The notes under the pieces were generated by a model. That model saw nothing but the letters and a program-made list of their open reading frames with translations. It made no database searches and was not told the DNA's origin. Source: a virus. From it: 50,063 nt of DNA. Where the stretch lies: the IMG/VR virus record IMGVR_UViG_3300048996_000074, positions 1 through 50,063 of that record, one strand, 5' to 3'. The position numbers and the translations under genes are program-made. This document shows positions 159 through 48,738 of the stretch, in pieces; within the stretch, counting starts at the first letter, position 1, and every line of letters begins with the position of its first letter.

Positions 159-220
159 GTGTGTCGGGCCGGAGGCGGGGGGCTTGCGACCCGACGGCGG
201 TGGCATCGGCAGCAGGGATG

Positions 221-6420: not shown

Positions 6421-6638
6421 GGCCGCTCGCTTCCTGTCGTGTCGGTGTGTGCGTCCAGCGCCGCGGTGAACACGGCAAGCGCCACCGCCGCCGCGGACGC
6501 CGCCTTGCCCAGACGCCGATGCGTCGCAGCCGTTGCCGCGACCGCGCGGTGCAGTGATGCGAGCGCTCGGCCGCGCTGCGCCCGGCGGCGGATCTGGCGC
6601 CGTAGCGCCATGACGTCTTCCAGCGTGCGAGTTCTCAT
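6417..6638 (-). CDS. Small basic membrane-spanning protein (73 aa)
   Basis: Very basic N-terminus (MRTRTLEDVMALRRQIRRRAQRGRALASLHRAVAATAATHRRLGKA) followed by one hydrophobic stretch, ASAAAVALAVFTAALDA, then a short polar tail. ATGA overlaps with the nuclease gene upstream and the next gene downstream. No known family. Confidence 0.6.
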   Translation of the reverse strand: MRTRTLEDVMALRRQIRRRAQRGRALASLHRAVAATAATHRRLGKAASAAAVALAVFTAALDAHTDTTGSERP

Positions 6639-7711
6639 GTCTGCTCTCCTCCGTTGTTATCTGACAACGGCCACACGCCAAAATCGCGCCCGCCGTTCGG
6701 CTTGTCACGCCAGAACAGGCCGCGGCCATCCCCAACCTCGGGGGGGCGGCCAGTCTCCTCGTACACCGCTTTCAACGCGTCCCGCTGCTCCTGGCGAAGC
6801 GCATCGATGACGACGTACCGCGCCGCCTCGACGTCGGCGTCCGCGGCGTCCGCGATAGCACCCACGCCGCGCTGCTCCGCGGGGATCGGGCACGACCGCT
6901 TCACCGGGCACGCCCGCAAGCACTGGCGGCCCGGCCGCGGCTTCGCGAGCTTCCCATCGGGCCCCTCGGTGATCGCGCGGTCCAAGAGCATCATCTGCAC
7001 GGCGATCTCCCGCTCGACATGCTCAAGCTCATCACGGCCGAGCGTCGCTTCGCGGCGCTCACCGAACCGCAGCCACGCCTCACGCAACGTCACACGCTGC
7101 GCCGAGGGATACTCCCGCATCACCAGCAGGCCGTACACGTCCAGCTGGAAGGTGCCGCCGACCGACAGGTACTCGCGGCCAACGATCGGATCGTCCCCCA
7201 CCGGCATCTTCCGCGGCGACCGTCGCTCACCGCGGCCCGTCTTGAAGTCCACGCACACGATCCCGTCAGGCGGGTCGGAGACGAGCACATCCGGTGTCCC
7301 CGTCAGCGTCCGCGTCACGCCGTCCGGGCACACGATGTCCGTCGCGATTTGCCGCTCGAGCGCCATCGGTGGCCGCGGCCACTTGTAGTACGAGCAGAAC
7401 GTCAGCACGAACGCCCGCAGGTCATCACGCTCATCGGCGCCGAGCACCCAATCGCCGGCCGCCAGCACCTCGTACATGACCTCGACGCCTTCCTGCGTCG
7501 GCATCTGCTGCTCACCCGTCCGGTACAGCGTCCGCAGGATCTCCGCCGCCACCCCGTGAAACGCGTTGCCGAGCGCCGCGGACGCACCCACGTTCCCCGC
7601 CGACAGATCATCGTCCAGCGCGAGGCCGTGGATCGCGCGGCGCGGACACACCTCAAAGCTGCGAAGGAGACTCTGCCGGTACGTCGTCGGACGCGACGCC
7701 ACGGCCATCAC
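6635..7711 (-). CDS. PD-(D/E)XK exonuclease, Cas4/RecB-like
   Basis: 358 aa. Opens with YRQSLLRSFEVCPRRAIHGL (the CPRR helix typical of RecB/Cas4/AddB-type nucleases), then TGTPDVLVSDPPDGIVCVDFKTGRGERR giving the PD...DxK active site, and a C-terminal cysteine cluster (QCLRACPVKRSCPIP) that with the N-terminal Cys could bind a [4Fe-4S] cluster. It is translationally coupled (GTGA) to the RecT-like gene upstream. The pair forms a phage recombination system in which the exonuclease resects ends and the annealing protein pairs the exposed strands. The first codon may be GTG at 7711 or the ATG at 7708. Confidence 0.85.
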   Translation of the reverse strand: MMAVASRPTTYRQSLLRSFEVCPRRAIHGLALDDDLSAGNVGASAALGNAFHGVAAEILRTLYRTGEQQMPTQEGVEVMYEVLAAGDWVLGADERDDLRAFVLTFCSYYKWPRPPMALERQIATDIVCPDGVTRTLTGTPDVLVSDPPDGIVCVDFKTGRGERRSPRKMPVGDDPIVGREYLSVGGTFQLDVYGLLVMREYPSAQRVTLREAWLRFGERREATLGRDELEHVEREIAVQMMLLDRAITEGPDGKLAKPRPGRQCLRACPVKRSCPIPAEQRGVGAIADAADADVEAARYVVIDALRQEQRDALKAVYEETGRPPEVGDGRGLFWRDKPNGGRDFGVWPLSDNNGGEQT

Positions 7712-8788: not shown

Positions 8789-8989
8789 TCAGCTCCCTCT
8801 CAGTGCTGTGCGCTGATTGTCGATGCGGCTCGCGAGATCATCCGCGGCGTCCTTCAGATCACGGATGTGCGACACGCGGACGTACGGCTCGTGATTGTCG
8901 ACCGCGCCGAGCTCGGCGTCGCGCAGCGTCTCGTGCAGGCGCTCGGCGAGCGCGTACGCGTCGTCCAGCTCGGCAATCAGACTGCTCAC
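8789..8989 (-). CDS. Hypothetical helical protein (66 aa)
   Basis: GTG start in a GTGA overlap with the response-regulator gene. Sequence MSSLIAELDDAYALAERLHETLRDAELGAVDN... DLKDAADDLASRIDNQ is strongly helical, probably a two-helix coiled coil. Sits between the pseudo-response-regulator and the RecT-like gene. No family recognised; a small partner protein is possible. Confidence 0.6.
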   Translation of the reverse strand: MSSLIAELDDAYALAERLHETLRDAELGAVDNHEPYVRVSHIRDLKDAADDLASRIDNQRTALRGS

Positions 8990-9702
8990 GCGATCACGTC
9001 CTCGCGGGACCGCAACACGTACCCGACGCCATGCACGTTCGCGATCCAGCCGGGATCGCCGAGCTTGCGACGCAGCCGGCACGTCCACGAATCCAGCGTG
9101 CGGGTCGACCCGCCGCCATTCTTGATGCCCATCGCGACGACCAGCTCCCGCTTCGTCATCACCCGATCATTGGACGCGAGCGCCCACAACAACGCCCACT
9201 CCCGCCGCGTCAACGCCTCCACCGGCTCGCCGTCACGCGTCACCGTCCGGGAGCCAGCATCGATCACGAGCCCGTGCGTTCGGATGACGCGCGCCAACGC
9301 CGCCGGCGGGGCGTCCAGCTCGACGCGACGCAAGAGCGCCTGTGCTCTCGCGTACAGCACCGCGTAGCTGAACGGCCGGGCGAGGTAGTCGTCGGCCCCG
9401 GCGTCGAACGCGCGCAACGTGTCGATCTCGGGCCCGTCGCCGCCGACGAGGATCATCGGCAACCGGCGATCCACCCCGGCGTCGCCCTCCCGCACGAGCC
9501 GCGCGAAATCGCGGCCGGAGCCGCCGTTGACACCCACGATCGCGATGTCCGGCACCCGGAACGCAGCGACCTCGAGCCCCGCTGTGGCGGACGCGGCGAC
9601 GGTGACGTCGAAGCCATCGGCGGTCAGGTTGTCCCCGAGGAACGTGCGCGCCTGGTCGTCCTGCTCGACGACGAGCGCGACGGGATGATCACGACGCGTC
9701 AT
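8986..9702 (-). CDS. OmpR/PhoB-type regulator with degenerate (pseudo) receiver domain
   Basis: 238 aa. Receiver-like domain at 8-115, then a full Trans_reg_C winged helix at about 135-235 (ALTRREWALLWALASNDRVMTKRELV... RTLDSWTCRLRRKLGD... NVHGVGYVLR). Phosphorylation residues are missing: the acceptor Asp position in PDIAIVG is Gly57, the Thr/Ser switch is VGG (Gly87), the Lys is Arg109 (ARPF), and one acidic-pocket residue is Gln. It should therefore act without phosphorylation. No sensor kinase is nearby. The start at 9702 has an ATGA overlap. Orphan pseudo-receiver regulators control development genes in actinobacteria; here it may control phage gene expression or hijack host promoters. 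Confidence 0.88.
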   Translation of the reverse strand: MTRRDHPVALVVEQDDQARTFLGDNLTADGFDVTVAASATAGLEVAAFRVPDIAIVGVNGGSGRDFARLVREGDAGVDRRLPMILVGGDGPEIDTLRAFDAGADDYLARPFSYAVLYARAQALLRRVELDAPPAALARVIRTHGLVIDAGSRTVTRDGEPVEALTRREWALLWALASNDRVMTKRELVVAMGIKNGGGSTRTLDSWTCRLRRKLGDPGWIANVHGVGYVLRSREDVIA

Positions 9703-12086: not shown

Positions 12087-12640
12087 GCGCCGAGCTCCGG
12101 GCGCCCGCGGATCCCGAGCGCCGCGAGCGGATCGAGCCGCGTCAACGCATCGCCACCCGACCTGGCCGCCAACGCCACCGTCCCCCGCAGCTCGCACGCC
12201 CCCACGTGATCGGACCACTCCCGCTCGAGCTCCTGCTTGCGCCAGTGCCCATCATCCGGGTCGTGCACCGGCAGCTCCTTCAGCCGCTGGATGCCGGACC
12301 GCTCCGCGAACGAAGCGACGAGCGGATGCATGTCCGCGAGCCGATCCCGGGTGCCGTCGATGCCGCGGGCGGCCAGTGCGCCGCGGGTGCCGAACAGCAG
12401 CTCGAACATCTCCGCGAACGTCGGCTGGCCCGCGCGCTCCGGCGTCAGGACCGCGACGATCTCGCTTGCTGACGGCCGGAACTTCGATCGGCCCACCAGC
12501 GCCTTCAACGCCGCGAGCACATCCACCGCGGGAAAATCCTCCAGCAGAAAGAAGTACGCGGTCGCGTCCCCGTCGCTGAAGTCTCCCGGCCAGCCGCCGG
12601 CGAGCACTCTGCGCGGCGCCTCGAATTCGTCCTGGGTCAT
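12083..12640 (-). CDS. Helicase loader/replication accessory protein (probable)
   Basis: 185 aa. The N-terminal part, GDFSDGDATAYFFLLEDFPAVDVLAALKALVGRSKFRPSASEIVAVL, matches the pattern of phage replicative helicase loader/inhibitor-type proteins (SPP1 G39P-like), with the 'RSKFRPSASEI' motif common in actinophage copies. The C-terminal half is helical. It lies right after the initiator-like gene with an ATGA overlap, the usual initiator-then-loader order in phages that borrow the host replicative helicase. No helicase or polymerase gene is found, which supports that role. Confidence 0.6.
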   Translation of the reverse strand: MTQDEFEAPRRVLAGGWPGDFSDGDATAYFFLLEDFPAVDVLAALKALVGRSKFRPSASEIVAVLTPERAGQPTFAEMFELLFGTRGALAARGIDGTRDRLADMHPLVASFAERSGIQRLKELPVHDPDDGHWRKQELEREWSDHVGACELRGTVALAARSGGDALTRLDPLAALGIRGRPELGA

Positions 12641-13545
12641 AGCTCTGTCGCCTCTCCTTCGATGTCCGTTGGGTTCGGTTCGTTTCGATGTGCGGCCATC
12701 ACCCGTTCCAGCGCCTCGATACCGCGCTGCTCCTGCTCGCGCTTGTCGAGATACCGCAGCTCCGAGACCGTGCGAGGTTGAAGCTGATGCACGTTGCCGC
12801 CGCCGTTCGCCGGCAGGGATGCGCGGCTGATGAAGTCCTCGAGCTTCGCTCCGGTGCGGCAGATCAGCTCGACGTCATCGAAGCGCTTTCCGTTGTCGGG
12901 ACTCACGAACGCTGCCCGGGCGGCGCCGTCGATGGCTGTTCGGATCTGCTGCGGGGTGTAGCCGTCCTTCAGCCGCGCCTTGATCTTCGAGGTGCGCTCA
13001 GCGGTGGGGCGTGCCTGTGGATGCTCGCAGTGCTCCCGCCAGTAGTCGAAGAGAGCGGTGGCTTGATCGGTGGGAACGACATCAGCGCGCTCGCGCGCGG
13101 TCTCTTGCTGGTTGTCTCTTTCTTCCGTTACCTGAGCGTCCGTAGGACGCGAGGGACGCGCCCGCGCGACATCGTCCGAAATCGAACCATGTGCATCGTC
13201 CGATTTCGCACCATGCAAAGTGCGGTATTGAAGGGTGCGGTCCCAGGGCTTCAGCGGGTTGCAGCGCGACTCGACGAGGCCTTTGTCGTGCAGCACCTTT
13301 AGGGCGGTCCGGATCGCGGCTCGGCCGAACGCGCCGTACAGGTCGTCGTGGAGGTCGGTGAGCGACCGGTAGAACCACAGGTCGTTGCCTTCCTTGCCGC
13401 CGCTCTGCGCCTGCCGGTCGTTGTCGGAGCGGACCTGTGTCCAGTAGGCGAAGAGGTCAAGCAGGAGCGCGGCGCAGGCGTTGCCGTCGCACTGCGCGAG
13501 GTAGTCGGGTCGCAGCGCGCGGAACCCGTTGTACGGCTTGCTCAT
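12637..13545 (-). CDS. Replication initiator-like protein (winged helix + DnaD-like C-terminus)
   Basis: 302 aa. Residues 1-115 are a winged-helix initiator/regulator domain (MSKPYNGFRALRPDYLAQCDGNACAALLLDLFAYWT... DLHDDLYGAFGRAAIRTALKVLHDKGLVESR). A polar linker follows. The C-terminal DnaD-like helix bundle (ERTSKIKARLKDGYTPQQIRTAIDGAARAAFVSPDNGKRFDDVELICRTGAKLEDFIS) resembles origin-remodelling phage initiators, and the YTPQQIRTAID...F...NGKRF...LICR phrase is characteristic. The start at 13545 uses an ATGA overlap. In phages of this type the origin often lies inside the initiator gene. No iterons were identified by eye. Confidence 0.75.
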   Translation of the reverse strand: MSKPYNGFRALRPDYLAQCDGNACAALLLDLFAYWTQVRSDNDRQAQSGGKEGNDLWFYRSLTDLHDDLYGAFGRAAIRTALKVLHDKGLVESRCNPLKPWDRTLQYRTLHGAKSDDAHGSISDDVARARPSRPTDAQVTEERDNQQETARERADVVPTDQATALFDYWREHCEHPQARPTAERTSKIKARLKDGYTPQQIRTAIDGAARAAFVSPDNGKRFDDVELICRTGAKLEDFISRASLPANGGGNVHQLQPRTVSELRYLDKREQEQRGIEALERVMAAHRNEPNPTDIEGEATEL

Positions 13546-16282: not shown

Positions 16283-16504
16283 ATGGCCGAGCCCGGACAG
16301 CGCGGCCGGACAGGACGCTGGCTGGACGAATGGACCCCCAGGCTGCTGAAGATCCTTGGCCTGCTCGGAATGCTCCTCAGTCTCGTGGCGTACGTCATCA
16401 CGAAGCAGTTCGAGCCGATCCTATTCGGCGGCAGCCTGACCGCCGCCAGTGGCGGGTATCTCGGGGACGCCGTGAACGCCCTCAAGCAAGCGAAGCCCGG
16501 CTGA
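16283..16504 (+). CDS. Membrane protein, possible holin (73 aa)
   Basis: MAEPGQRGRTGRWLDEWTPRLLKILGLLGMLLSLVAYVITKQFEPILFGGSLTAASGGYLGDAVNALKQAKPG. One strong membrane helix (LKILGLLGMLLSLVAYVI) and a weaker FGGSLTAASGGYL segment. First of five rightward genes beside the lysis operon and coupled by TGATG to the next. Two-segment small membrane proteins beside an endolysin are often holins, but there is no direct evidence. Confidence 0.6.
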   Translation: MAEPGQRGRTGRWLDEWTPRLLKILGLLGMLLSLVAYVITKQFEPILFGGSLTAASGGYLGDAVNALKQAKPG

Positions 16505-16671
16505 TGCCAACGATGGTCCCTGCCGTCGTCGCGTTGTTCGTGAGCATGGCGTTCACGCTGTTCGCGATCGATCATCAGGAGGCCGCGAAGATCGCCGCGA
16601 TCCCGCTCGGGGTCATCGTCCTCGCGCTGCTCGCCGCCTCAGCCATCGCGGGGCGAGGCAAGACCCGCTGA
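16504..16671 (+). CDS. Two-helix membrane protein (55 aa)
   Basis: MPTMVPAVVALFVSMAFTLFAIDHQEAAKIAAIPLGVIVLALLAASAIAGRGKTR. Helices VPAVVALFVSMAFTLFAI and IAAIPLGVIVLALLAASAIAG with a charged DHQEAAK turn and a basic tail: a classic holin-like hairpin topology. TGATG coupling to genes on both sides. Either it or the preceding gene could be a second holin or antiholin. Confidence 0.65.
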   Translation: MPTMVPAVVALFVSMAFTLFAIDHQEAAKIAAIPLGVIVLALLAASAIAGRGKTR

Positions 16672-17075
16672 TGGAAACGCTCGACCCTCACGACCAGCAC
16701 GTCGCGCAGGTCGCCGCAGACCTCGCCGTCCGCAAGATCAGCCCCCTCATACACCGCGTCATCAGGGCCCTCGCGATCGGCGGTGTCCTGCTCGTCGGCG
16801 GCGTAACCGGCGGATGGCTCGTCGTGCAGGACCAGGCCCGAGCGATCCAAGACTCCAGGTTCAAGGCGTCGCGCGACAGCTGCCGGGCGCAGAACGGCCG
16901 CAACCACGAGACGTTGCTCGCGCTCGGGGAGGTCACCCCGGGCGTGAACACCAGCCGCATGTCCACGCGCGAGCGTGACCGGCAGATCGCGGCGACGACG
17001 TTCCTGATCAACAAGATCGTGCCGTATCGCCCCAACTGCGACGCGGTTGCCCGCAAGGCAGTCGCGACACCATGA
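16671..17075 (+). CDS. Single-pass membrane protein (134 aa)
   Basis: N-terminal cytoplasmic helix (DPHDQHVAQVAADLAVRK), one membrane helix (ALAIGGVLLVGGVTGGWLVV), then a soluble outside domain with two cysteines (RDSCRAQNGRNH... PYRPNCDAVAR) that may pair. Family unknown. In Gram-positive phages similar signal-anchor proteins near the lysin include spanin-like or exclusion proteins. Start TGATG, end ATGA with the next gene. Confidence 0.6.
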   Translation: METLDPHDQHVAQVAADLAVRKISPLIHRVIRALAIGGVLLVGGVTGGWLVVQDQARAIQDSRFKASRDSCRAQNGRNHETLLALGEVTPGVNTSRMSTRERDRQIAATTFLINKIVPYRPNCDAVARKAVATP

Positions 17076-27959: not shown

Positions 27960-27989
27960 TTGACTTCTGCTCAGCCACCTGTGTAGAAT
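27960..27989 (+). promoter_or_regulatory. Promoter of rightward island, probably leaderless
   Basis: TTGACT (27960-27965), 18-bp spacer, TAGAAT (27984-27989). The PadR ATG begins at 27996, seven bases after the -10, exactly where transcription should start, so the mRNA is predicted to have no 5' UTR. Leaderless translation is common in actinobacteria. A 10-bp palindrome, ATGCATGCAT (27988-27997), spans the -10 end and the start codon and is a good candidate operator for autoregulation. Confidence 0.75.
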
Positions 27990-27995
27990 GCATGC

Positions 27996-28253
27996 ATGAA
28001 CTCCACGCACACGACACGACAGGTGCTAGCAGCCCTCCTCGCCAACGGCGGCGAGATGACCGGCTACGACATCGTCCAGGCAACCGGCCTTCAGAGCGGC
28101 ACCGTCTACCCGATCCTGCGCCGCTTCGATGACAACGGGCTCGTGGCCAGCCGCGACGATCGCTCACGTGGGCGGCTCCGTGTCCACTACCAGCTGACCG
28201 ACGACGGGCGGGCGGCAGCACAGAACGTCAACAAGGAGACCCCGAAGCCATGA
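27996..28253 (+). CDS. PadR-family transcriptional regulator
   Basis: 85 aa, short PadR (subfamily s) wing-helix: TTRQVLAALLANGGEMTGYDIVQATGLQSGTVYPILRRFDDNGLVASRDDRSRGRLRVHYQLTDDGRAAAQNV. TGYDI, SGTVYPIL and the R..YQLTDDG stretch are diagnostic. First gene of the 6-kb rightward island, leaderless start at 27996. By family it is likely an autorepressor binding an ATGC/GCAT palindrome; the site ATGCATGCAT over its own promoter fits. It may thus keep the island silent. Confidence 0.9.
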   Translation: MNSTHTTRQVLAALLANGGEMTGYDIVQATGLQSGTVYPILRRFDDNGLVASRDDRSRGRLRVHYQLTDDGRAAAQNVNKETPKP

Positions 28254-28453
28254 CGACCGACACATGCGATCTGTGCAGCACCGACGATTGGCCCGTCGGC
28301 ACGATCCTGACTGGCCCAGCGTTCGAGGATCACAAGCGCGCATGCCAGCCCTGCGCCGAGCAAGCGCAGCGGGCCGGGAGCATCGTGCTGTGGGACGACC
28401 CTTGGAGCAACCCGCACCACGAAGTCAACCAGCCGTTCGAAGCCCACCGATGA
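28250..28453 (+). CDS. Small zinc-binding protein (67 aa)
   Basis: MTTDTCDLCSTDDWPVGTILTGPAFEDHKRACQPCAEQAQRAGSIVLWDDPWSNPHHEVNQPFEAHR. Cys-x2-Cys plus Cys-x2-Cys make a four-cysteine zinc ribbon. ATGA overlap with the PadR gene. Function unknown. Confidence 0.65.
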   Translation: MTTDTCDLCSTDDWPVGTILTGPAFEDHKRACQPCAEQAQRAGSIVLWDDPWSNPHHEVNQPFEAHR

Positions 28454-28632
28454 CCGCGACGTCCTACAACTGGCCCGCGGCAGCCGCCCGCTTCGGCCTC
28501 GACGAGCCCGGCCACACGTTCGTTCCGCAGGGCCACGATTACGACTTCACGATCAGTGAGGAGCACGGTGCGGAGTTGCTTGTCGGCACGATCCGTGACC
28601 TGTACCCCCGCGCCCAATCACTAGGAAACTGA
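28450..28632 (+). CDS. Hypothetical protein (60 aa)
   Basis: MTATSYNWPAAAARFGLDEPGHTFVPQGHDYDFTISEEHGAELLVGTIRDLYPRAQSLGN at an ATGA overlap. Small alpha/beta, no recognisable motif. The next gene begins 3 nt later. Confidence 0.55.
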   Translation: MTATSYNWPAAAARFGLDEPGHTFVPQGHDYDFTISEEHGAELLVGTIRDLYPRAQSLGN

Positions 28633-28635
28633 GCC

Positions 28636-28806
28636 ATGAGCGTCGACGACCAGTACCCGAACTGTCCAGTGTGCGGCGCCGAAGTCGATGAGCCTTGTCG
28701 GCGTGGGCCTGGATTGACGGGCGACGGGGCCACATCGTGTGGAGACGGGTTGTCAAACATCGTCGTCACAGAGGCCACCCACACGGGGGAGATAGAGGCC
28801 CGATGA
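28636..28806 (+). CDS. Small zinc-finger protein (56 aa)
   Basis: MSVDDQYPNCPVCGAEVDEPCRRGPGLTGDGATSCGDGLSNIVVTEATHTGEIEAR. NCPVCGAEVDEPCRRGPG is the common phage 'CPxCGAxxxxPC' mini zinc finger, with a further Cys in TSCGD. End overlaps the next ATG. Confidence 0.6.
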   Translation: MSVDDQYPNCPVCGAEVDEPCRRGPGLTGDGATSCGDGLSNIVVTEATHTGEIEAR

Positions 28807-29078
28807 CCGTTCCGGATAAGCAGCGCGTCACGCCGCACATGGCCCGCAAAGGCCGCCGCCTCGTCGCGCAGGGCAAAGTGCGCTTCGTTCCGACCGGCCG
28901 CGTCTACGTTGTCGCCGGAGACCACGACACGTACATCGTCACCGTCGCTGGTGAACTGGCCGCATGCAGCTGCGCGGCGAACGGCACGTGCAGCCACATC
29001 CAGGCCGTCAGGATCGCGCGCCGCCACGGCACCGAGCCCGCGCACGTCCTGCCCGTCACGACCCCCACATCGACATGA
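28803..29078 (+). CDS. SWIM-type zinc-finger protein (91 aa)
   Basis: MTVPDKQRVTPHMARKGRRLVAQGKVRFVPTGRVYVVAGDHDTYIVTVAGELAACSCAANGTCSHIQAVRIARRHG... The strand-rich core ends in the SWIM motif C-x-C-x5-C-x-H (ACSCAANGTCSH). SWIM domains bind nucleic acid or proteins and occur in bacterial and plasmid proteins. Nearly the whole protein is one SWIM domain. ATGA coupled to its neighbours. Confidence 0.75.
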   Translation: MTVPDKQRVTPHMARKGRRLVAQGKVRFVPTGRVYVVAGDHDTYIVTVAGELAACSCAANGTCSHIQAVRIARRHGTEPAHVLPVTTPTST

Positions 29079-29347
29079 GCCATACGACCATCTGGAAGTT
29101 CGCGCTACCAATCGCAGACACCAGCTACGTGCCGCTACACGTCAATGCCGAAGTGCTCTCCGTCGCAGCGCAGAACGGGAGCGTGTGGATCTGGGCGCGA
29201 GTCGACACGACCGAGCCGACCGGGCATCGCACGTTCTACGTCCGAGGCACTGGCCACCCGCTCGGTGACGCCGCTGACGCCAGATTCGTCGGGACGGTGC
29301 ACGCCCTAGGCGGCGCGCTCGTCTGGCACGTATTCGAGGCGACATGA
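29075..29347 (+). CDS. DUF7352-like phage protein (90 aa)
   Basis: MSHTTIWKFALPIADTSYVPLHVNAEVLSVAAQNGSVWIWARVDTTEPTGHRTFYVRGTGHPLGDAADARFVGTVHALGGALVWHVFEAT. The WKF-PL-I, A-VLSV--QNG--WIWA-VD, RTF-V-GTGHPL and FVGT---GGALVWHVFE blocks are the well-known small DUF7352 pattern of phages and plasmids. Function unknown, beta-rich. Confidence 0.75.
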   Translation: MSHTTIWKFALPIADTSYVPLHVNAEVLSVAAQNGSVWIWARVDTTEPTGHRTFYVRGTGHPLGDAADARFVGTVHALGGALVWHVFEAT

Positions 29348-29393
29348 GCCTCCGTTGCATCACGACCCCCACCAGCACGTAGGAGAACCACCC

Positions 29394-29708
29394 ATGAGCA
29401 CCATCACGCCACGCGAGCAGCCCACGCTCACCACGCACACCGCCTGCACCGGCCACGAGTACGTCCGCTACACGGATCCGACCTGGGGCACCATCGAATT
29501 CGTCGGCATCGACGGGAGCGAAGGCGGAACGGACGGCGAGGTTGAAATCTTCAGCCGCGACAGCGACGGCGGGCTCGAGCGAGTCCACCAGATCCCGCGC
29601 GCCGACTGGGAGCACATCGTTCAGCACGTCAACGAGTCGATGCGCGGACCGCACCGCGTTCGTCGCTTCCGCGTTCCCCGCCGCTTCAAGCGACGCACGG
29701 GCCGATGA
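29394..29708 (+). CDS. Hypothetical protein with basic tail (104 aa)
   Basis: Start MSTITPREQPTLTTHTACTGHEYVRYTDPTWGTIEFVGIDGSEGGTDGEVEIFSRDSDGGLERVHQIPRADWEHIVQHVNESMRGPHRVRRFRVPRRFKRRTGR. The ATG at 29394 is preceded by AGGAGAACCACCC, a good SD. The basic C-terminus (RVPRRFKRRTGR) may touch nucleic acid or membrane. Family unknown. Confidence 0.6.
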   Translation: MSTITPREQPTLTTHTACTGHEYVRYTDPTWGTIEFVGIDGSEGGTDGEVEIFSRDSDGGLERVHQIPRADWEHIVQHVNESMRGPHRVRRFRVPRRFKRRTGR

Positions 29709-30097
29709 GTCTCCGCCGCATCTTCTTCGGCCGCGCCACGGAGAAGGACCCCGACCCGGAACGAGACCGCGACCCGCTCCGCAACCCAACCGGCGGCACC
29801 AGGCACAAGGAGGGACGCGGCCCACTCGCCTCGAGCCCGCCGCCGCCGCCGCGCGAGACCCGCAAGCCCACGAAGCCACCACGGCCCGCGAGAGCGAGCC
29901 GGCCAGCGGCAGCACGAACCACGAGCACGCCGCGCAAGTCGAAGGCCCGCAGCTCGCAACCCATCCTCGGCCGCGCCAACAACAGCAAACGCGGCCCCGC
30001 ATCCCGCAGCATCGTCGGACGCGGCCGATCACCACTCAGCGGCGGCAAGAAGATCACAGGACGCGGCGGCATGCCCAAAGGCAAGAAGATCCGCTGA
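29705..30097 (+). CDS. Basic low-complexity protein (130 aa)
   Basis: MSLRRIFFGRATEKDPDPERDRDPLRNPTGGTRHKEG... PPPPPRETRKPTKPPRPARASRPAAARTTSTPRKSKARSSQPILGRANNSKRGPASRSIVGRGRSPLSGGKKITGRGGMPKGKKIR. Entirely disordered, proline/arginine/lysine-rich, DNA- or RNA-binding by charge. ATGA start. Possibly a nucleoid-like or membrane-linked charged protein. Confidence 0.5.
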   Translation: MSLRRIFFGRATEKDPDPERDRDPLRNPTGGTRHKEGRGPLASSPPPPPRETRKPTKPPRPARASRPAAARTTSTPRKSKARSSQPILGRANNSKRGPASRSIVGRGRSPLSGGKKITGRGGMPKGKKIR

Positions 30098-30157
30098 GCG
30101 GCTGCCGCCCATCGTGATACCGTCTGCGTGCAATCGACCGCACACGATGGAGGCGCC

Positions 30158-30298
30158 ATGCACAACGACCTATTCACCCGCCGCGAGACACGCCGCTTCG
30201 CAGGCCTCGGGATCCTGTTCCTGATCCTCAACCTCGCGTTCTGGCTCGCACTGATCGCCGGCGGCCTGTACCTCCTCAAGGCCTTCGACGTCCTCTAG
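30158..30298 (+). CDS. Small membrane protein (46 aa)
   Basis: MHNDLFTRRETRRFAGLGILFLILNLAFWLALIAGGLYLLKAFDVL: charged N-terminus and one strong membrane helix. SD TGGAGG 5 nt before the ATG at 30158. No overlap with neighbours, in contrast to most genes. Confidence 0.6.
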   Translation: MHNDLFTRRETRRFAGLGILFLILNLAFWLALIAGGLYLLKAFDVL

Positions 30299-30300
30299 CC

Positions 30301-30513
30301 ATGCCGCAGATCACAGTCCGCCTCAGCGACGAGTTGCGGGAACGCATCGACACCGCACGCGGCGACATCCCACGCGAACGCTGGGTCCGCCGAGTCCTCG
30401 AGAACGCGCTCACGACCAGCGCCGACCCGCACGGCACAGACCGCGCCGCACAGGCCCTACCGGCCGGCGACCGCGCCGACGCATTCCGCGGCGCGACGCA
30501 GAGGACACCATGA
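30301..30513 (+). CDS. Ribbon-helix-helix DNA-binding protein (70 aa)
   Basis: MPQITVRLSDELRERIDTARGDIPRERWVRRVLENALTTSADPHG...: Ribbon PQITVRL, helix SDELRERIDTARG, helix PRERWVRRVLENAL, i.e. CopG/Arc/MetJ type. This fold commonly works as a plasmid or phage repressor/autoregulator or antitoxin; here there is no toxin beside it. Starts 2 nt after the preceding stop. Confidence 0.8.
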   Translation: MPQITVRLSDELRERIDTARGDIPRERWVRRVLENALTTSADPHGTDRAAQALPAGDRADAFRGATQRTP

Positions 30514-30689
30514 CCCTCCGCACGCCCGCCGAGCTCCAAGCCCGCTACCCCTGGCTCACCTACCACCACGGCCGCTACCACGTCGACCCGCGCATGCAAA
30601 TGAGCGCCACGACCCGCGAGCGCCGGCTAGCGATCGTCAAGGAACTCAACGCCCTGCGCGACGAAACCCGGAAAGGAGCAGCCGCATGA
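30510..30689 (+). CDS. Hypothetical basic protein (59 aa)
   Basis: MTLRTPAELQARYPWLTYHHGRYHVDPRMQMSATTRERRLAIVKELNALRDETRKGAAA. Basic, histidine- and tyrosine-containing N-terminus, helical C-terminus. ATGA overlaps. Function unknown. Confidence 0.55.
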   Translation: MTLRTPAELQARYPWLTYHHGRYHVDPRMQMSATTRERRLAIVKELNALRDETRKGAAA

Positions 30690-30913
30690 CCGAGCTGAGC
30701 ACCGACCACTTCACGCACTGCGCGCGGACCGTCAGGGGCGGCGCGCTCACCCGAGGCGGCTTCCCCGACCGACGGTCCGCGCAACGCTACGCCGACAAGC
30801 TGAACGAGACAGCCGCACGCATGGGCCTACACACGCGCTACGCCGCGCACCTAGCCATCGGCCGACCCGTCCCCCGCCCCGTCGCAGATCCCACCGAGGA
30901 GCCCCACGCATGA
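30686..30913 (+). CDS. Hypothetical protein (75 aa)
   Basis: MTELSTDHFTHCARTVRGGALTRGGFPDRRSAQRYADKLNETAARMGLHTRYAAHLAIGRPVPRPVADPTEEPHA. Pattern of strand-helix (GGFPDRRSAQRYADKLNETA) like small single-domain modulators. ATGA coupled. Family unknown. Confidence 0.55.
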   Translation: MTELSTDHFTHCARTVRGGALTRGGFPDRRSAQRYADKLNETAARMGLHTRYAAHLAIGRPVPRPVADPTEEPHA

Positions 30914-31137
30914 CCACCGAAGGCGAACACCCCGACCTCGCACCAGACCGCAAACCCCGCCGCCTACGAAACGAAAGCAACACCCCCACCGCACCCACCG
31001 AAACAGCGGTCGGTCGCGCGGCACGCCCCGCATCGCTAGCCTTTCCGCTTCGCCCGGCTAGCTCGCGGGGCGACCGCGGACCCCGGGCTTTTGTTCGTCG
31101 TGTGTTTGGGTTCTCCGGCTCATCGGATCTGCGATGA
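30910..31137 (+). CDS. Hypothetical basic protein (75 aa), low-confidence C-terminus
   Basis: MTTEGEHPDLAPDRKPRRLRNESNTPTAPTETAVGRAARPASLAFPLRPASSRGDRGPRAFVRRVFGFSGSSDLR. Polar, disordered. Codon pattern changes sharply inside the ORF at about 31040, where a hairpin with T-run (31052-31095) lies in the coding frame. It may be a real gene that reads through, or the true coding end may be earlier. The ATGA start and the overlap of its stop with the next ATG favour a real gene. Confidence 0.4.
   Translation: MTTEGEHPDLAPDRKPRRLRNESNTPTAPTETAVGRAARPASLAFPLRPASSRGDRGPRAFVRRVFGFSGSSDLR
31052..31095 (+). terminator. Hairpin plus T-run at GC-skew switch
   Basis: Outer arms GCCCGG (31052-31057) / CCGGGC (31083-31088), inner arms CGCGG (31064-31068) / CCGCG (31074-31078), then TTTTGTT (31089-31095). 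This is the best classical rho-independent terminator shape in the window, on the plus strand, even though it sits within the 30910-31137 frame. It coincides with the sharp change in G/C strand bias described in the findings. Confidence 0.55.
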
Positions 31138-31334
31138 GCACCACCGTCAGTAGACGTGCCGCGGTTGAGGCTGACGTCCGCGCGGTACTGGCTCTTGTGC
31201 GCAGGTCTGCGCGGGATGATTATCTTGGCTTCGCGCGAGCTGGCGACGACGCCATTGATCAGGCGACCGTGCAGTTGACGTCCATCATCGTCCGCCTCGT
31301 GGCGGAGGCGACCACGTTGCCGGGTGACCCATGA
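31134..31334 (+). CDS. Hypothetical protein (66 aa)
   Basis: MSTTVSRRAAVEADVRAVLALVRRSARDDYLGFARAGDDAIDQATVQLTSIIVRLVAEATTLPGDP. Helical; start ATGA with the previous frame and ATGA with the next. First gene of the G-rich half of the island. Function unknown. Confidence 0.6.
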   Translation: MSTTVSRRAAVEADVRAVLALVRRSARDDYLGFARAGDDAIDQATVQLTSIIVRLVAEATTLPGDP

Positions 31335-31699
31335 GCCGCCGCAAGGAGGATTTGGAGCCGCTGCACGGTGAGGTGGTTGAGCGTCCGGTGCCTGAGGCTC
31401 GCCCGGTTCCGGGGAAGAGCGGGATCGAGTTTCCGGGGCGGTTGCTTCGTGTGCCGTTTCGCGACGCCGATCGGCCGTTGGTCATCGTGTTGCCACCGGA
31501 CCGTCTTGTGGAGGATGAGCCGCCGCCGGAGCAGGGCATCCGGTGGGACAGGCTCGCGGCGTACGCGTTCGGGATCGTGATGCTGCTCGTGGTGTTGGGC
31601 ATCTTGATCGCGGGTGGCGTGCTGGATCTGAGTGCGTTGTCGCCGGATGTGGTGCAGTCGCATCGGCCGCCGCCTGATCTCGTGCACCCGAGCCGATGA
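31331..31699 (+). CDS. Single-pass membrane protein of transfer module (122 aa)
   Basis: Long cytoplasmic N-terminus (MSRRKEDLEPLHGEVVERPVPEARPVPGKSGIEFPGRLLRVPFRDADRPLVIVLPPDRLVEDEPPPEQGIRWDRLAAYA), then membrane helix FGIVMLLVVLGILIAGGVL and a short outside tail. Membrane proteins flanking TraB-like translocases in Streptomyces plasmids (Spd type) spread plasmids through mycelium; a comparable role is inference only. Confidence 0.6.
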   Translation: MSRRKEDLEPLHGEVVERPVPEARPVPGKSGIEFPGRLLRVPFRDADRPLVIVLPPDRLVEDEPPPEQGIRWDRLAAYAFGIVMLLVVLGILIAGGVLDLSALSPDVVQSHRPPPDLVHPSR

Positions 31700-31878
31700 G
31701 GGTCGCTGTGGAGTTGACGGAGAGAGAGGCGAATGAGCTTCAGCGTGCGGAGTTGCGACCTCGTTTCTCTCATTCGACGGAGAGCACCGCTCCGATCGCG
31801 CGGGAGTTGGAGTCGGCGCACAGGAAGCTAAGCGACGCGATCGATGCCGCCCGGTTCCTTGCTCGTGTGGGCGGCTGA
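31696..31878 (+). CDS. Hypothetical helical protein (60 aa)
   Basis: MRVAVELTEREANELQRAELRPRFSHSTESTAPIARELESAHRKLSDAIDAARFLARVGG: helical hairpin. Its TGA shares one base with the next ATG. Lies between two membrane-protein genes of the translocase cluster. Function unknown. Confidence 0.55.
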   Translation: MRVAVELTEREANELQRAELRPRFSHSTESTAPIARELESAHRKLSDAIDAARFLARVGG

Positions 31879-32216
31879 TGAGGCGTCCGTCGTTTTCGGG
31901 GGCGTTGCTGCCGCGTCTCGGGTGTCTCGGGTTCGTCGCGATGATCGCGTTCGTGTGGGCGTTCTCGGTGATCGGGGCGGTCGCGGTGATGCATCATGAG
32001 CAGCAGGGCTGCGACCGGCCACCCGGCATCGGGCGCGTGCTGGTGCCGCGGTCGAGCGTGACGTATGCGCGGGCGAATGGGTGGCCGCGGGTGCTCGTTG
32101 TGGGCGACAGGTTTGGGGGCCCGGTGCTGTATGACCACTCGCGGGAGGCTTCGCGGGTGCGTGCTGGGGCGGCTCGGTTCTGCGATGGCGTGCGGTACCG
32201 GATCGTGGCGCGCTGA
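31878..32216 (+). CDS. Membrane-anchored protein (112 aa)
   Basis: MRRPSFSGALLPRLGCLGFVAMIAFVWAFSVIGAVAVMHHEQQ (one membrane helix), then a compact outside domain with Cys (QGCDRPPGIGRVLVPRSSVTYARANGWPRVLVVGDRFGGPVLYDHSREASRVRAGAARFCDGVRYRIVAR). Overlap TGATG with the next gene. Probably part of the membrane complex around the translocase. Confidence 0.6.
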   Translation: MRRPSFSGALLPRLGCLGFVAMIAFVWAFSVIGAVAVMHHEQQGCDRPPGIGRVLVPRSSVTYARANGWPRVLVVGDRFGGPVLYDHSREASRVRAGAARFCDGVRYRIVAR

Positions 32217-32614
32217 TGCCAGCGGATGCCCAGGAGGCTCAGCAGCGTCGCGCTGAGCAGCATGAGGCACGCAGGGCGGCGGAGCGGAAGCGTCGCTGCG
32301 ACAAGGCCCGCCGGTCGGCCATCACGGCTCTGCACACGGCCAGGGCGGCGCTGGACAAGGCGCGGCTCGCTGCCCGCGGTGTGGACGGGGAGGACCCGGA
32401 CGACGACGCGCAGATGGAGATCGACACGGCGCTGGCGGCCGTGACCGCGGCGCACAAGCGGTGCGATACCGCGATGCGCAGGTGCGGCGCCGCGGCGTCC
32501 CGTGGCGTCGTCAGGGACGCTGAGCGGTACGCGGGGCAATGCGCCCGGGAAGCACGGACGGCCGGCGTGGAAGCACGCCGGGTGCAGCAGCTCGCGCGGG
32601 CCGCGGACGACTGA
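32216..32614 (+). CDS. Coiled-coil protein next to translocase (132 aa)
   Basis: MPADAQEAQQRRAEQHEARRAAERKRRCDKARRSAITALHTARAALDKARLAARGVDGEDPDDDAQMEIDTALAAVTAAHKRCDTAMRRCGAAASRGVVRDAERYAGQCAREARTAGVEARRVQQLARAADD. Almost fully helical, charged heptads. TGATG overlap with the FtsK gene suggests coupled synthesis, perhaps as a partner or regulator. Confidence 0.6.
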   Translation: MPADAQEAQQRRAEQHEARRAAERKRRCDKARRSAITALHTARAALDKARLAARGVDGEDPDDDAQMEIDTALAAVTAAHKRCDTAMRRCGAAASRGVVRDAERYAGQCAREARTAGVEARRVQQLARAADD

Positions 32615-34101
32615 TGGACGGCGCGTTCGTGATCCTGCAGCTTGCGCGGGACCTGGCCATCATCGCGGCGCAGACCGTGTTCATCTTGTGCGTCGCGGCG
32701 GTCCGCTTCCCGATCCGCGCCGCCTGCCTGGCGGGGTTCGTTGGGCTCGCGGTCGTGCTGGGTTTGCATGCCGCGGTCGGCGTCGTGTTCTACGGCGCGC
32801 TGACCCTGATCGCATGGAACGTCGCGGGGCGGGTGCTCGAGCGGGCGACGGGGAAGCTGTGGCTGATCGCTGCGTACCGTGGCCTTGTCGGCACGCGGCT
32901 ACGGTCGTCGTGGCGGCGCTGGCGGCTGTATGAGCGGCGATGGCAAAGGGTGCTCGCCGGCCAGCACCTGACCGTCCCGATCGACAACGGATACGACGAC
33001 GTCCCGAAGCTCGGCAGGGTGACGTGCACGCCGGCGGGTGACACGATCCGCGTGAAGGTGCTGCCGGGACAGACCACGGCGGAGTTCGTTGGGCATGAGG
33101 GGCAGACCGCCCGCAACCTCGCGAAGGCATTCAAGGCCCGGGAGTGCCGTGTGACGGACATCCCGCAGACGGATTACGTCACGCTGGAATTGCCGCGCGG
33201 GAAGGATTCGCTCGCTGCGGTCGTGCCGTTCCCCGGCATCCCGCGGACGACGGCTGAGGTGGATCTGCGGAGGATCCCGATCGGTGTCGACGAGCGCGGC
33301 CGAACGGTCACGGTGCCGATCCACGGGTCGCATGTCCTCGTCGCCGGGCAGACGGGCGCGGGCAAGGGCTCGGTGTTCTGGTCGATCATCCTGCACCTGC
33401 TCCCGTATATCCGGAAGGGGTCCGTCAGGTTGTGGGCCGTGGATCCGAAGCGCGGGATCGAGCTGAACCCGGGCCGCAACCTGTTCTATGCGTTCGCGGA
33501 CAACGAGGACGACATCCCCACGCTCCTCGCGCGCGCTGTGACGGTCATGGACGACAACGGCGACCACCTCAAGGCGCTGGTCGAGCGCAAGCTGACACCG
33601 ACCCCGGACCGTCCGCTGAACGTGATCTTCGTTGACGAGCTCGGTCGGCTCGCGGCGGATAAGAAGTGCCAGCAGTCGATTCGTACGCTCGTGAACGTCG
33701 GCCGCGCCCCGGGGTGTTCGGTGGTCGCGGCGACGCAGAACGCGACGAAGGAGATCGTGGCTGATCGTGACGAGATCCCCGTGAAGATTTGCCTGCGGAT
33801 GGAGAACCTCGACAGTGTCCGCAAGCTCCTAGGCCGCACCGCGTACGCCGCGGGCGCCCGAGCGGACGCGATCTCGCGGGCGACACCGGGCGTCGGATAC
33901 GTCGCGATCGACGAGCTGGCCGATGAGCTGGCGGACGTCGCGCCGTGGTGGTCGCGGTGGCTGCCGTGGAACCGCGGGTATGAGGACGCGACGAGCCGGC
34001 CTCCGGCGCGGTTCCGGGCGTTCCACGTCACCGACGAGATGATCGCTGAGGCGAACGCGAGCTTCGCGCCCGCCGACGAACCGGAGCCCGTCGCGGTCTA
34101 G
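32614..34101 (+). CDS. FtsK/SpoIIIE-type DNA translocase (TraB/TraSA-like)
   Basis: 495 aa. N-terminal region (about 1-75) has two or three membrane helices (FVILQLARDLAIIAAQTVFILCVAAV; ACLAGFVGLAVVLGLHAAVGVVFYGALTLI). The motor domain holds Walker A GQTGAGKG (245-252) followed by SVFWSIILHLLPYIRKGSVRLWAVDPKRG, then FADNEDDIPTLLARAVTVMDDN and Walker B NVIFVDELGRLAA; the C-terminus has VGYVAIDE. The order WAVDPKRG...FADNEDD matches plasmid TraB/AICE TraSA dsDNA pumps rather than long cell-division FtsK. No gamma domain is evident. Start TGATG. Transfers dsDNA between cells in actinobacterial plasmids; phage role unknown. Confidence 0.9.
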   Translation: MDGAFVILQLARDLAIIAAQTVFILCVAAVRFPIRAACLAGFVGLAVVLGLHAAVGVVFYGALTLIAWNVAGRVLERATGKLWLIAAYRGLVGTRLRSSWRRWRLYERRWQRVLAGQHLTVPIDNGYDDVPKLGRVTCTPAGDTIRVKVLPGQTTAEFVGHEGQTARNLAKAFKARECRVTDIPQTDYVTLELPRGKDSLAAVVPFPGIPRTTAEVDLRRIPIGVDERGRTVTVPIHGSHVLVAGQTGAGKGSVFWSIILHLLPYIRKGSVRLWAVDPKRGIELNPGRNLFYAFADNEDDIPTLLARAVTVMDDNGDHLKALVERKLTPTPDRPLNVIFVDELGRLAADKKCQQSIRTLVNVGRAPGCSVVAATQNATKEIVADRDEIPVKICLRMENLDSVRKLLGRTAYAAGARADAISRATPGVGYVAIDELADELADVAPWWSRWLPWNRGYEDATSRPPARFRAFHVTDEMIAEANASFAPADEPEPVAV

Positions 34102-34685
34102 GGCAGTGGTTCGTCCCAGACGAGGCGGACGGTCAGCAGCGCGGGCCCTAGGTGCTCGTCGAAGTCCATCGTGAGCAGCCAGTCGCGGTGCGTGTCGTCT
34201 GTCAGCCACCGTCCCTCATACGCGGCGCCGCGGTAGATAAGGATGTTGTGCGCGGGCCGGCGGTCTGCGCCGCGGCCTTTCCATTTCGGGCCGGTGAGTG
34301 CGTCCCCGAGCGCTTTGGACACGAGCACACGGAAGTTCTCGACGTCGCGGTGCGCCGGTTTCGCGAACCGCATGCGGGCGTGCGCCCACACGGGGGCCTT
34401 GCTGACACCGTCGGCGCCGACGCTCGGGATCGGTCGCGGCAGCAGGTAGTGCAGCCTGTGCAGTTCGCGCATGAGCTGACCCTGCAGCTCGGTCTTCAGG
34501 CGATCGAACGACATCGATCTGAGCGCCACATCATTGATCGACCCGGACCTCAGCGGTAGCGACACGCGCCGTTCGATCCGTTGGGTGCCGGGGGGTGGCG
34601 GGATCGCGCCGAGTTCCATTCCGATGCGGCGGAAGAGTTCGCCGAGCGCCCCTGCGGGCAACTGGGTTTCGGGTGGCGCGAGCAC
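34098..34685 (-). CDS. RusA-like Holliday junction resolvase (divergent)
   Basis: 195 aa. GTG start at 34685. Middle and C-terminal region HRDVENFRVLVSKALGDALTGPKWKGRGADRRPAHNILIYRGAAYEGRWLTDDTHRDWLLTMDFDEHLGPALLTVRL follows the RusA scheme D-x-x-N--K-x-x-D-A-L-x-G ... DDTxxDW...V. The extra N-terminal 60 residues are unusual. Its stop CTA overlaps the TAG of the convergent FtsK gene (34098-34101, CTAG), so no space separates the units. Confidence 0.55.
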   Translation of the reverse strand: MLAPPETQLPAGALGELFRRIGMELGAIPPPPGTQRIERRVSLPLRSGSINDVALRSMSFDRLKTELQGQLMRELHRLHYLLPRPIPSVGADGVSKAPVWAHARMRFAKPAHRDVENFRVLVSKALGDALTGPKWKGRGADRRPAHNILIYRGAAYEGRWLTDDTHRDWLLTMDFDEHLGPALLTVRLVWDEPLP

Positions 34686-46951: not shown

Positions 46952-47317
46952 CTAGCAGTTCACCCAGGCGCCGAGGCCTTGCGACCCCTTGACCCTGCGG
47001 GCGACGCGTTCCTGCACGACTGGTCGCGCGAACTGCGGCAGCCCCCAACCACCATGCGCCCACCACGTACCCGTCAGGATCTGGAACTTCCCGCCGCCAG
47101 TGCCACCCGACACGTTCGGCTGCCGGTATCTGGCGAGCGACCATTCGCCGCGCCCGACGCCGCTCTCCGGGCCCCACGTGCACCACGGCATCGGCCTGCG
47201 CTTGTAGGTGCGCATCTCCACGCGCTCACGGCACGCACGGCGCCAGCACGGCGGACGCGGCGCCCTCGCCGGCTGACCGGGCAGTAGGAGCGCGGCCATG
47301 ACAGCGAGCGTGCTCAC
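46952..47317 (-). CDS. Secreted Rpf-like lytic transglycosylase
   Basis: 121 aa, GTG start at 47317 (GTGA overlap). Signal peptide-like N-terminus (MSTLAVMAALLLPGQPARA), then PMPWCTWGPESGVGRGEWSLARYRQPNVSGGTGGGKFQILTGTWWAHGGWGLPQFARPVVQERVARRVKGSQGLGAWVNC. GPESG gives the catalytic Glu; GGGKFQI, TWxxxGG and the QERVARRV...QG..AWVNC ending match the Rpf/transglycosylase-like fold of actinobacteria. Would cleave or remodel peptidoglycan glycan strands; a virion-associated or host-reviving role is open. Confidence 0.78.
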   Translation of the reverse strand: MSTLAVMAALLLPGQPARAPRPPCWRRACRERVEMRTYKRRPMPWCTWGPESGVGRGEWSLARYRQPNVSGGTGGGKFQILTGTWWAHGGWGLPQFARPVVQERVARRVKGSQGLGAWVNC

Positions 47318-48738
47318 GCGACCTCAAACAACGCTGCTTGCCCCGAGCCCTTGACCATGGCGCGCTCCTTCTCCGCCTCCACGCGCTTGACGAGCGTCAT
47401 CCCGTCCGGGTGCCGCGCCCACCACGCGCAACGTGCCTGCGCTATCGCGACGTACTCGGCCTCGCGTTCGATGCCGATGAAGTCGAAGCCCTCCAGTCCG
47501 GCCCCGATCCCTGTCGTGCCGCTGCCGGCGAACGGGTCGAGCACCGTCCCACCGGGTGGGGTGACGAGCCGCACAAGCCAGCGCATGAGCGCGATTGGCT
47601 TGACGGTCGGGTGGACGTTGCGGGCTTCCCTCGCGGTGCTTTCCGATTGAAAGGTGCCGGGATTCGCCTCTCCACTCGACCATGTTGGTTTGCGCTTCTC
47701 CTCGAATCCGTCGAGTCCCGCGTTGCGCTCGGCCGTCGAGCTCTTCGCGCAGTAGAACGCGCGTCGTTCCATGTCCTCATGCCGGTGGTCGAAGGTGGGG
47801 AAGAACCGGGATGCACCGCCCGAGTCACCGTAGTTCAACGCTGCGTCGCCATCCGCGATCCCACCGTCGTAAAGGTTGCGACCGCGGAGCGCCTCCCGCT
47901 CGTACGGCCGTGGACTCGTCAGCGTCCCCGTCATTGCGTCCAGGCACTCGGCGGCTTGTTCGTCCAGTACCACGTTCGCGGGCCAACGCCCGGCGGCATG
48001 TGGCGGTGCCTGCCGCCCCTCCGCTTCGTGGTAGTCGTAGGCAGTCGTCGTATGCGCCCGGTTGTCATTGCCGGGGTGCGCGTAGTCCCCTTCAGCAGCG
48101 CCGATCCGGCATCCGTCCACGTTCAGTGCCCCGGTCCCGTGCGCGAGGACACACGCGGCGACGGTCCCGCTCAGGGGTTTGCGAGCGACGACGATCGGCT
48201 CGTGCGCGGGCTTGAGAGCGGTCCCCCACCCTGACCAGCGTTCAGCTTCGGGGGTAGCGGGCGCGGTCAGCGATGGCCCTTTGCCGTGTGCTGGTTCATC
48301 TCCGTAGGTGTCGCCCGTCCAAGTGCCATTCACCTTGCGTGAGGCGAATGGTGATTCGCCCACGACCTTCCGTTCCGCGCCCGCGGCTCTGTCGATCGCT
48401 TTGCTCACGTCCAGCGATTTCGGGAACCCCGAGCCGTACAGCCAGGCGATGGTGTCGCGAATCTCAAACCCGGCGTCTTCGATGGCGCATGCGAGGCGGT
48501 GGTAGGTGCGTGTCCCGCCGAACGCGAGGAGATGTCCGCCGGGTTTGAGGACGCGGAGCGCTTCGCGCGCCCAGGCTCCGTGCATGGCTTGCGCCTCGGC
48601 TGGCGATGGTGCGTGATCCCAGGCGCGCCCCATGAACGAGAGCAGGTACGGCGGATCAGTGCAGATCGCGCCCACGCTCGCTTCGGGCATCGCGGCCATC
48701 ACTTCGATGCAGTCGCCGTGGATGACGCGCGCACTCAT
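47314..48738 (-). CDS. DNA adenine-type methyltransferase (beta class)
   Basis: 474 aa, start MSARVIHGDCIEVMAAMPE at the ATGA overlap (48738). Motif IV DPPY (28-31) comes before motif I, GGTVLDPFAGSGTTGIGA near residue 410, so the circular order is beta class, normally N6-adenine or N4-cytosine specific; DPPY favours N6-adenine. A long central target-recognition part (WSGWGTALKPAHEPIVVARKPL...) contains the KPAHEPI motif. A stand-alone modification enzyme would protect phage DNA from restriction or mark it. No endonuclease partner adjacent. Confidence 0.92.
   Translation of the reverse strand: MSARVIHGDCIEVMAAMPEASVGAICTDPPYLLSFMGRAWDHAPSPAEAQAMHGAWAREALRVLKPGGHLLAFGGTRTYHRLACAIEDAGFEIRDTIAWLYGSGFPKSLDVSKAIDRAAGAERKVVGESPFASRKVNGTWTGDTYGDEPAHGKGPSLTAPATPEAERWSGWGTALKPAHEPIVVARKPLSGTVAACVLAHGTGALNVDGCRIGAAEGDYAHPGNDNRAHTTTAYDYHEAEGRQAPPHAAGRWPANVVLDEQAAECLDAMTGTLTSPRPYEREALRGRNLYDGGIADGDAALNYGDSGGASRFFPTFDHRHEDMERRAFYCAKSSTAERNAGLDGFEEKRKPTWSSGEANPGTFQSESTAREARNVHPTVKPIALMRWLVRLVTPPGGTVLDPFAGSGTTGIGAGLEGFDFIGIEREAEYVAIAQARCAWWARHPDGMTLVKRVEAEKERAMVKGSGQAALFEVA

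Follow-up and report, generated by a model that had tools for sequence, protein, structure and literature searches.

A predicted AICE-type membrane DNA translocase ends a coupled operon in a tailed phage

Double-stranded DNA translocases in conjugative elements and phages

Actinomycete integrative conjugative elements (AICEs) encode RepSA, RepAM or Prim-Pol together with an integrase. In these elements a single transfer protein, Tra, moves double-stranded DNA without a type IV secretion system (PMC3218068). The clade that includes the Tra of Micromonospora rosaria pMR2 (WP_011265188) is AICE-borne and associated with RepSA initiators (PMC3218068). TraB of the Streptomyces conjugative plasmids, exemplified by that of pSVH1 (NF041214), has an FtsK-like motor and a C-terminal winged-helix, gamma-like domain for recognition of 8-bp repeats, and is a proposed membrane pump for double-stranded DNA; its clt locus is made up of clustered direct 8-bp repeats (PMC5365140, PMC3218068). 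FtsK/HerA pumps that export DNA are also found beside a nuclease, as in Thermus TdtA (transjugation) and the NurA-HerA pairs (PMC5365140). In phages, genes for FtsK/SpoIIIE motors were already known from actinophages (PHROG 1358), including mycobacteriophages LittleE and Baka and Streptomyces phage Gilgamesh.

The translocase described here is encoded by a tailed phage (Table 1) and is closest to the first of these groups. It resembles the pMR2-like Tra proteins in length class, N-terminal transmembrane (TM) segments, a GKGS P-loop, DPK and VDE motifs, a C-terminal VRA-x-xV-x-D stretch and the absence of a long C-terminal domain. However, identity is only 32-40%, the Rep, Xis, Int and regulator of that element were not found in the phage, and the phage operon has coiled-coil and membrane genes of its own. 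pSVH1 TraB shares the motor but has 772 residues, a canonical GKS and a long post-motor region, whereas the phage protein has no winged helix; against the NCBIfam model NF041214 the phage protein scores 34.5 bits with a cut-off of 800, which pSVH1 TraB itself, at only 41, does not approach. The FtsK-like proteins of LittleE, Baka and Gilgamesh match at 26-29% identity over about half of the protein and at most 66 bits, and that of Gilgamesh differs further in having 638 residues and GKS. Chromosomal FtsK/SpoIIIE has the same motor fold, but the phage protein is half the length, has no gamma domain and matches these proteins much more weakly in sequence than it does AICE Tra. The likeness to TdtA, drawn from its description, and to NurA-HerA concerns related phages in which a nuclease accompanies the pump, although that nuclease is of the NucA/NucB type with an N-terminal TM segment and not NurA.

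The phage genome and its plus-strand operon

The window, the whole stretch of DNA that was analyzed, is a virus record of 50,063 bases, a whole circular-type contig with a 127-base direct terminal repeat. It carries terminase, portal, tape-measure and tail families and is the complete genome of a tailed phage (Caudoviricetes). Relatives of its portal are mostly from actinophages and the phage probably infects actinobacteria; neither megablast (20 kb) nor blastn (2 kb) returned a known phage relative. Genes were called with our own script and their starts are predicted.

Table 1. Features of the translocase operon and of the translocase, in window coordinates or residues
Feature	Position	Strand	Remarks
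Promoter-like site TTGACT-N18-TAGAAT	27960..27989	+	head of the plus-strand cluster; 10/12 consensus letters
PadR-family regulator	27996..28253	+	first gene of cluster 27996-34101; PF03551 E=3.4e-13
Small protein, 70 aa	30301..30513	+	first of ten coupled genes; ribbon-helix-helix-like by eye
Single-TM protein, 122 aa	31331..31699	+	coupled operon gene; 76% identity over 120 residues to G001
Small coupled operon gene, 60 aa	31696..31878	+	
Small membrane-anchored protein, 112 aa	31878..32216	+	two Cys; without the RDE core
Ala-rich coiled-coil protein, 132 aa	32216..32614	+	directly upstream; overlaps the translocase start
Translocase, 495 aa	32614..34101	+	predicted AICE-type membrane-anchored dsDNA translocase
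N-terminal TM hairpin of translocase	residues 1-79		
Linker helix of translocase	residues 83-116		
Beta-rich FtsK-alpha-like region of translocase	residues about 120-235		
FtsK/HerA motor of translocase	P-loop 245-253; Walker B 340-342		GKGS P-loop; VDE Walker B
C-terminus of translocase			short beta strand and helix; no winged helix
RusA-like protein (Holliday-junction-resolvase fold)	34098..34685	-	convergent; 4-base overlap with translocase

Apart chiefly from the plus-strand cluster that ends with the translocase, almost every gene is on the minus strand; three small plus-strand genes are also found at 16283-17075. The promoter-like site ends 6 bases ahead of the ATG of the PadR-type gene, a possible leaderless start, and two such sites were found as against 0.3 expected in shuffles. 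Ten consecutive genes of the cluster (30301-34101) overlap by 1-4 bases, with the translocase last. The first-pass annotation of this DNA had already placed membrane and coiled-coil genes ahead of the translocase in one coupled operon, which agrees with these results except that the operon is longer than was stated. The first protein of the ten gave no Pfam match above the cut-off. The cluster also encodes a very basic, Pro/Arg/Lys-rich protein of 130 residues (29705-30097), which has a homologue in the related phage G001 and looks DNA- or RNA-binding.

The model of the convergent RusA-like protein has 1q8r as its top PDB match by Foldseek (E=1.4e-3, probability 1.00). Its active-site Asp pattern is partly kept, and searches of Pfam and of PDB sequences gave no match. 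The window also encodes a replication initiator-like gene (12637-13545) and a PD-(D/E)XK nuclease (6635-7708).

A membrane-anchored FtsK/HerA-type motor

The translocase reading frame is complete and intact and ends in TAG. Mechanically it could begin at 32539, but the ATG at 32614 is favored because it overlaps the stop codon of the gene before it and because the homologue in G001 (contig L013), 70% identical, also has 495 residues. Two hydrophobic peaks are seen at the N-terminus (residues 14-32 and 41-59). The N-terminal helices and the motifs GQTGAGKG (245-252), WAVDPKRG, FADNEDD and VIFVDEL listed in the first-pass annotation are all present, with the correction that the P-loop, GQTGAGKGS, is non-canonical, its Lys being followed by Gly-Ser and not by Ser/Thr. 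GKGS is common to most AICE-type relatives and is a trait of this family, from which the Walker chemistry of the phage protein is presumed; pSVH1 TraB and the Gilgamesh protein have GKS.

The protein scores 29.6 bits against Pfam FtsK_SpoIIIE (cut-off 24) and matches PHROG 1358 at E=3e-26. Its AlphaFold2 model (pLDDT 89.5, pTM 0.83) has FtsK motors as the best solved matches by Foldseek (E 5e-16 to 1e-14; 2iut and 6t8b at about 1e-15), and the conjugation coupling protein TcpA (E 3e-14) and SIR2/HerA structures are also among the matches. No domain follows the last short strand and helix of the model, and the winged helix is absent. An FtsK_gamma HMM, for which FtsK of two actinobacterial genomes served as positive control, had no match in the window or in G001-G005. 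Sequence and model together predict a membrane-anchored motor of the FtsK/HerA superfamily with all core motifs. Between the window and G001 the gene has a dN/dS of 0.38 and is under purifying selection; its codon use is typical of the phage genome.

Sister phages share the operon arrangement

Relatives were found among viral contigs by alignment; pattern scans with single proteins, the translocase and the capsid protein, gave none. The collections searched are samples, mostly of metagenome contigs. Phage genes are present on G001, G002, G003 and G005, with terminase families in the first three and a head protease or tape measure in G002 and G005. The terminase PHROG families differ (979 in the window, 9/19179 in G001, 38 in G002 and 675 in G003), and terminal repeats of 139-141 bases are found in G002 and G003.

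In all five phages (the window and these four) the translocase is the last gene of an operon that runs against its neighbors, and an Ala-rich coiled-coil gene lies upstream of it, directly before it in the window, G002, G003 and G005. Similarity between the coiled-coil proteins is clear only within the pairs window-G001 (43%, E 4e-21) and G003-G005 and is weak otherwise: from the window it reaches E 6e-5 with G002 and only E 0.02 with G005, with nothing usable for G003. Immediately beyond the translocase, G001 and G002 have a RusA-like homologue, as does G005 once a 55-aa gene is passed; in G003 the homologue is at another site. G001 also has two DNA-methylase genes (L013:7052-8830) between its coiled-coil gene and its translocase; the matching methylase of the window is at 47314-48738.

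Two genes upstream of the translocase, G002, G003 and G005 encode a protein with an N-terminal TM segment and a NucA/NucB-type nuclease domain. The Pfam match is borderline for G002, and a profile of the three sequences matches NucB (5omt) at E=9.4e-8. RDEYP and N..QGASM are invariant in the three proteins (contigs L014, L015 and L017), so that the Arg-Asp-Glu and distal Asn of the NucB active site, its catalytic residues (PMC5758888), are kept. The NucA of Bacillus subtilis is membrane-anchored and faces outward (PMC8262900). At this place the window has a short two-Cys membrane protein, and G001 has one upstream instead; the nuclease core is absent from both in the alignment. By hhalign the window protein aligns with the nuclease in a C-terminal stretch only (14 columns, probability 55%); a NucA-like identity for this gene was dropped on that ground. 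Lacking the RDE core, the protein is not expected to be a nuclease.

Relatives outside phages

The best match of the translocase in the plasmid collection, in which pMR2 is among the matches, reaches 150 bits, as against 71 bits in the phage collection. On a matching M. avium plasmid the relative adjoins a replication initiator. Among the matches listed, the best 80 bacterial loci, on genome contigs, have about 32-40% identity and about 200 bits. Scanned with the pMR2 proteins as probes, 71/80 of these loci have an adjoining RepSA-type gene, 69/80 an integrase match and 69/80 the pMR2 regulator nearby; some bacterial relatives lie at loci without a detectable Rep or Int. In four actinobacterial genomes the phage translocase scores 160-193 bits (one more 116) against AICE-type Tra genes but only about 19-38 bits when compared with long FtsK-type proteins from those genomes. 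These scores bear out the earlier assignment to the plasmid/AICE kind of translocase and not to cell-division FtsK. The accompanying remark that FtsK-like genes occur in lytic phages too is correct, but such genes are far more distant from this one.

In a tree of 42 proteins the translocases of the window, G001, G002, G003 and G005 form one clade (UFBoot/SH-aLRT 97/81). A second viral clade (100/99) is made up of seven other viral contigs, and bacterial AICE-type proteins lie between the two. A quick tree of 107 proteins agrees. The stem branch of the window-G001 pair is long (1.3), and its sister relation is therefore the weaker part of the tree. This topology suggests at least two captures by viruses. 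Genes of the second clade (L020, L023 and related contigs) sit elsewhere in other phage genomes, where most scanned neighbors have no Pfam match; one of the seven contigs (L019/G007) carries an integrase.

Judged from these alignments and trees, the translocase groups with actinomycete AICE Tra and not with host FtsK or the FtsK of isolated phages. We found no literature report of an AICE-type Tra in phages, which is not proof of absence. One record filed as viral, L018/G006 (IMGVR_UViG_2873330523_000001), was left out as a phage, having a RepSA-type Rep, an integrase and Tra together, and is probably a misfiled AICE. Another, L010 (CAKLQH020000030.1, "Acinetobacter phage MD-2021a"), carries minCDE, trxB, aat and a full-length ftsK and looks like a bacterial chromosome contig.

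Plasmid and TraB traits

Searches for tyrosine and serine recombinases, ParA and ParB gave no match in the window and G001-G003, and in G005 ParB_N had one match below threshold. Homologues of the RepSA, Int and Xis of pMR2 were not found in the window or in G001-G005, a search of the window for WhiB gave none, and no Spd or AICE partner genes were detected for the translocase. A search for clt-like repeats had been proposed as a check; in the non-coding gaps of the window no 8-mer occurs in at least three copies within 150 bases, a search that degenerate repeats could escape; the few 8-mer clusters found lie outside these gaps and were rejected as clt candidates. A sample of 397 actinobacterial genomes, which offered no positive control, gave no relative at E<=1e-70.

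The TraB/TraSA-type label in the first-pass annotation thus stands as kinship to AICE and plasmid Tra, but TraB sensu stricto is not supported, since there is neither a C-terminal winged helix or gamma domain nor, in the non-coding gaps, a clt-like repeat. "Phage-plasmid" is likewise not supported, since AICE Rep, integrase, ParA and ParB were not found in the genome.

Possible roles of the pump

What would a phage do with a conjugation-type pump? In the reading that we prefer, a lineage of actinobacterial phages would have captured the single-protein double-stranded DNA translocase from an AICE-like element and retained it as the final gene in an opposed, translationally coupled operon of the phage. 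By family resemblance, a hexamer in the membrane would use ATP to pump double-stranded DNA across, needing no type IV secretion system, and would be aided by the coiled-coil and membrane-anchored products of the genes just upstream. In the sister phages the exported nuclease would have the task of processing DNA on the outer face. Less surely, the DNA moved during infection would most likely be that of the phage, passing across the envelope or cross-wall into neighboring cells or hyphal compartments, with the substrate chosen by something other than a TraB-type interaction of clt and winged helix. Movement of phage DNA is favored because the nearest relatives act in this way. Against it, an exported nuclease in three sister phages would hinder the passing of intact phage DNA, and the clt-like repeats, Spd or AICE partner genes and gamma or winged-helix domain were not detected. 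Taken whole, from capture by actinophages to action at the membrane or cross-wall on phage DNA, this account is tentative and has somewhat less than an even chance of being right. Its strongest form is doubtful: a phage/conjugation hybrid that forms virions and, besides lysis, pumps its double-stranded genome into neighbors through the captured translocase and its membrane partners, so that infection passes without virions or receptors.

The pump could instead serve exclusion or host takeover. The membrane translocase and an exported partner would then move DNA at the membrane, in or out, so that superinfecting or host DNA is expelled and cut, the nuclease acting on the outer face in the sister phages and its nuclease part being lost, or never there, in the window. 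With its NucB residues kept and its gene placed second before the translocase, that exported nuclease makes exclusion, or else destruction, of other DNA a strong rival. FtsK/HerA ATPases also occur in anti-phage systems (the translocase matches PADLOC mad8 at E=2e-15, and SIR2/HerA is among the structural matches), and the operon has a promoter-like site and PadR-type regulator of its own. However, mad8 is matched over only a section of the motor, the close homologues serve as conjugation pumps and not in defence, and neither the window nor G001 has the nuclease core. NucA of Bacillus subtilis aids DNA uptake (PMC8262900), so that such a nuclease need not mean exclusion. Overall, exclusion or takeover is rather unlikely. 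The purpose of the AICE-type pump, whether to spread phage DNA or to exclude other DNA, is in either case inferred.

An improbable alternative is that the protein works as a small FtsK in internal DNA logistics: in packaging, in segregation or, together with the adjacent RusA-like protein, in resolving concatemers. The FtsK motor fold, the replication initiator-like gene, the PD-(D/E)XK nuclease and a convergent RusA-like gene directly beside or close to the translocase in 4/5 phages would fit such a role. The membrane anchor, the kinship to AICE Tra and the absence of a gamma domain for KOPS/Xer partners speak against it, and the RusA-like gene lies on the other strand, outside the operon, and elsewhere in G003. 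Since the terminase families differ among the window, G001, G002 and G003 while the translocase module is kept, the translocase is not part of one packaging module, and the packaging role that had been raised for it is unlikely. Identity as the packaging ATPase itself was rejected, the terminase gene being separate and its family varying between relatives.

There is only a slim chance that the phage persists as an extrachromosomal prophage and conjugates by means of a TraB-type protein, as the plasmid-prophage first suggested for this genome would. An AICE-type Tra, a circular-type contig and the terminal repeats of G002 and G003 would be expected of one, but such end repeats also arise when circularly permuted phage DNA is assembled, and the failure to find partition, recombination and AICE replication genes, clt-like repeats or a close relative in the sampled genomes counts against it. 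Hitch-hiking cargo, an AICE gene captured without function for the phage, would agree with the AICE origin, the mosaic genomes and the presence of duplication debris, but is very improbable given the dN/dS, a gene intact in five phages at a conserved operon place, the long stem branch and the phage-typical codon use. The debris in question is a short reading frame of G001 (L013:3625-3753) that resembles mid-translocase (ITNVGRAPGF...QSPKKEVV; 48% over 33 residues), possibly left by a duplicated translocase within the same operon.

FtsK-like genes had been seen in actinophages, but those are distant from this translocase. The present data extend this to a conjugation-type pump that recurs across phages with different packaging modules and in two viral clades, and that in five phages lies within a conserved membrane operon, three of them with an exported nuclease. 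If the pump carries phage DNA from cell to cell, the boundary between phages and conjugative elements would become less sharp and infection through cross-walls would have an explanation; should it exclude DNA, it would represent an exclusion device of a new kind.

Other genes of the window

Two genes of the minus strand lie apart from this operon. The product of the first (8986-9702) is a response regulator of the OmpR type that looks complete (REC 1.6e-9, Trans_reg_C 5.5e-12); it is unusual in a phage and has a 56% homologue in G001. The second (447-1328) is a DUF5131 gene (Pfam E 1.9e-76), and both G002 and G005 carry homologues.
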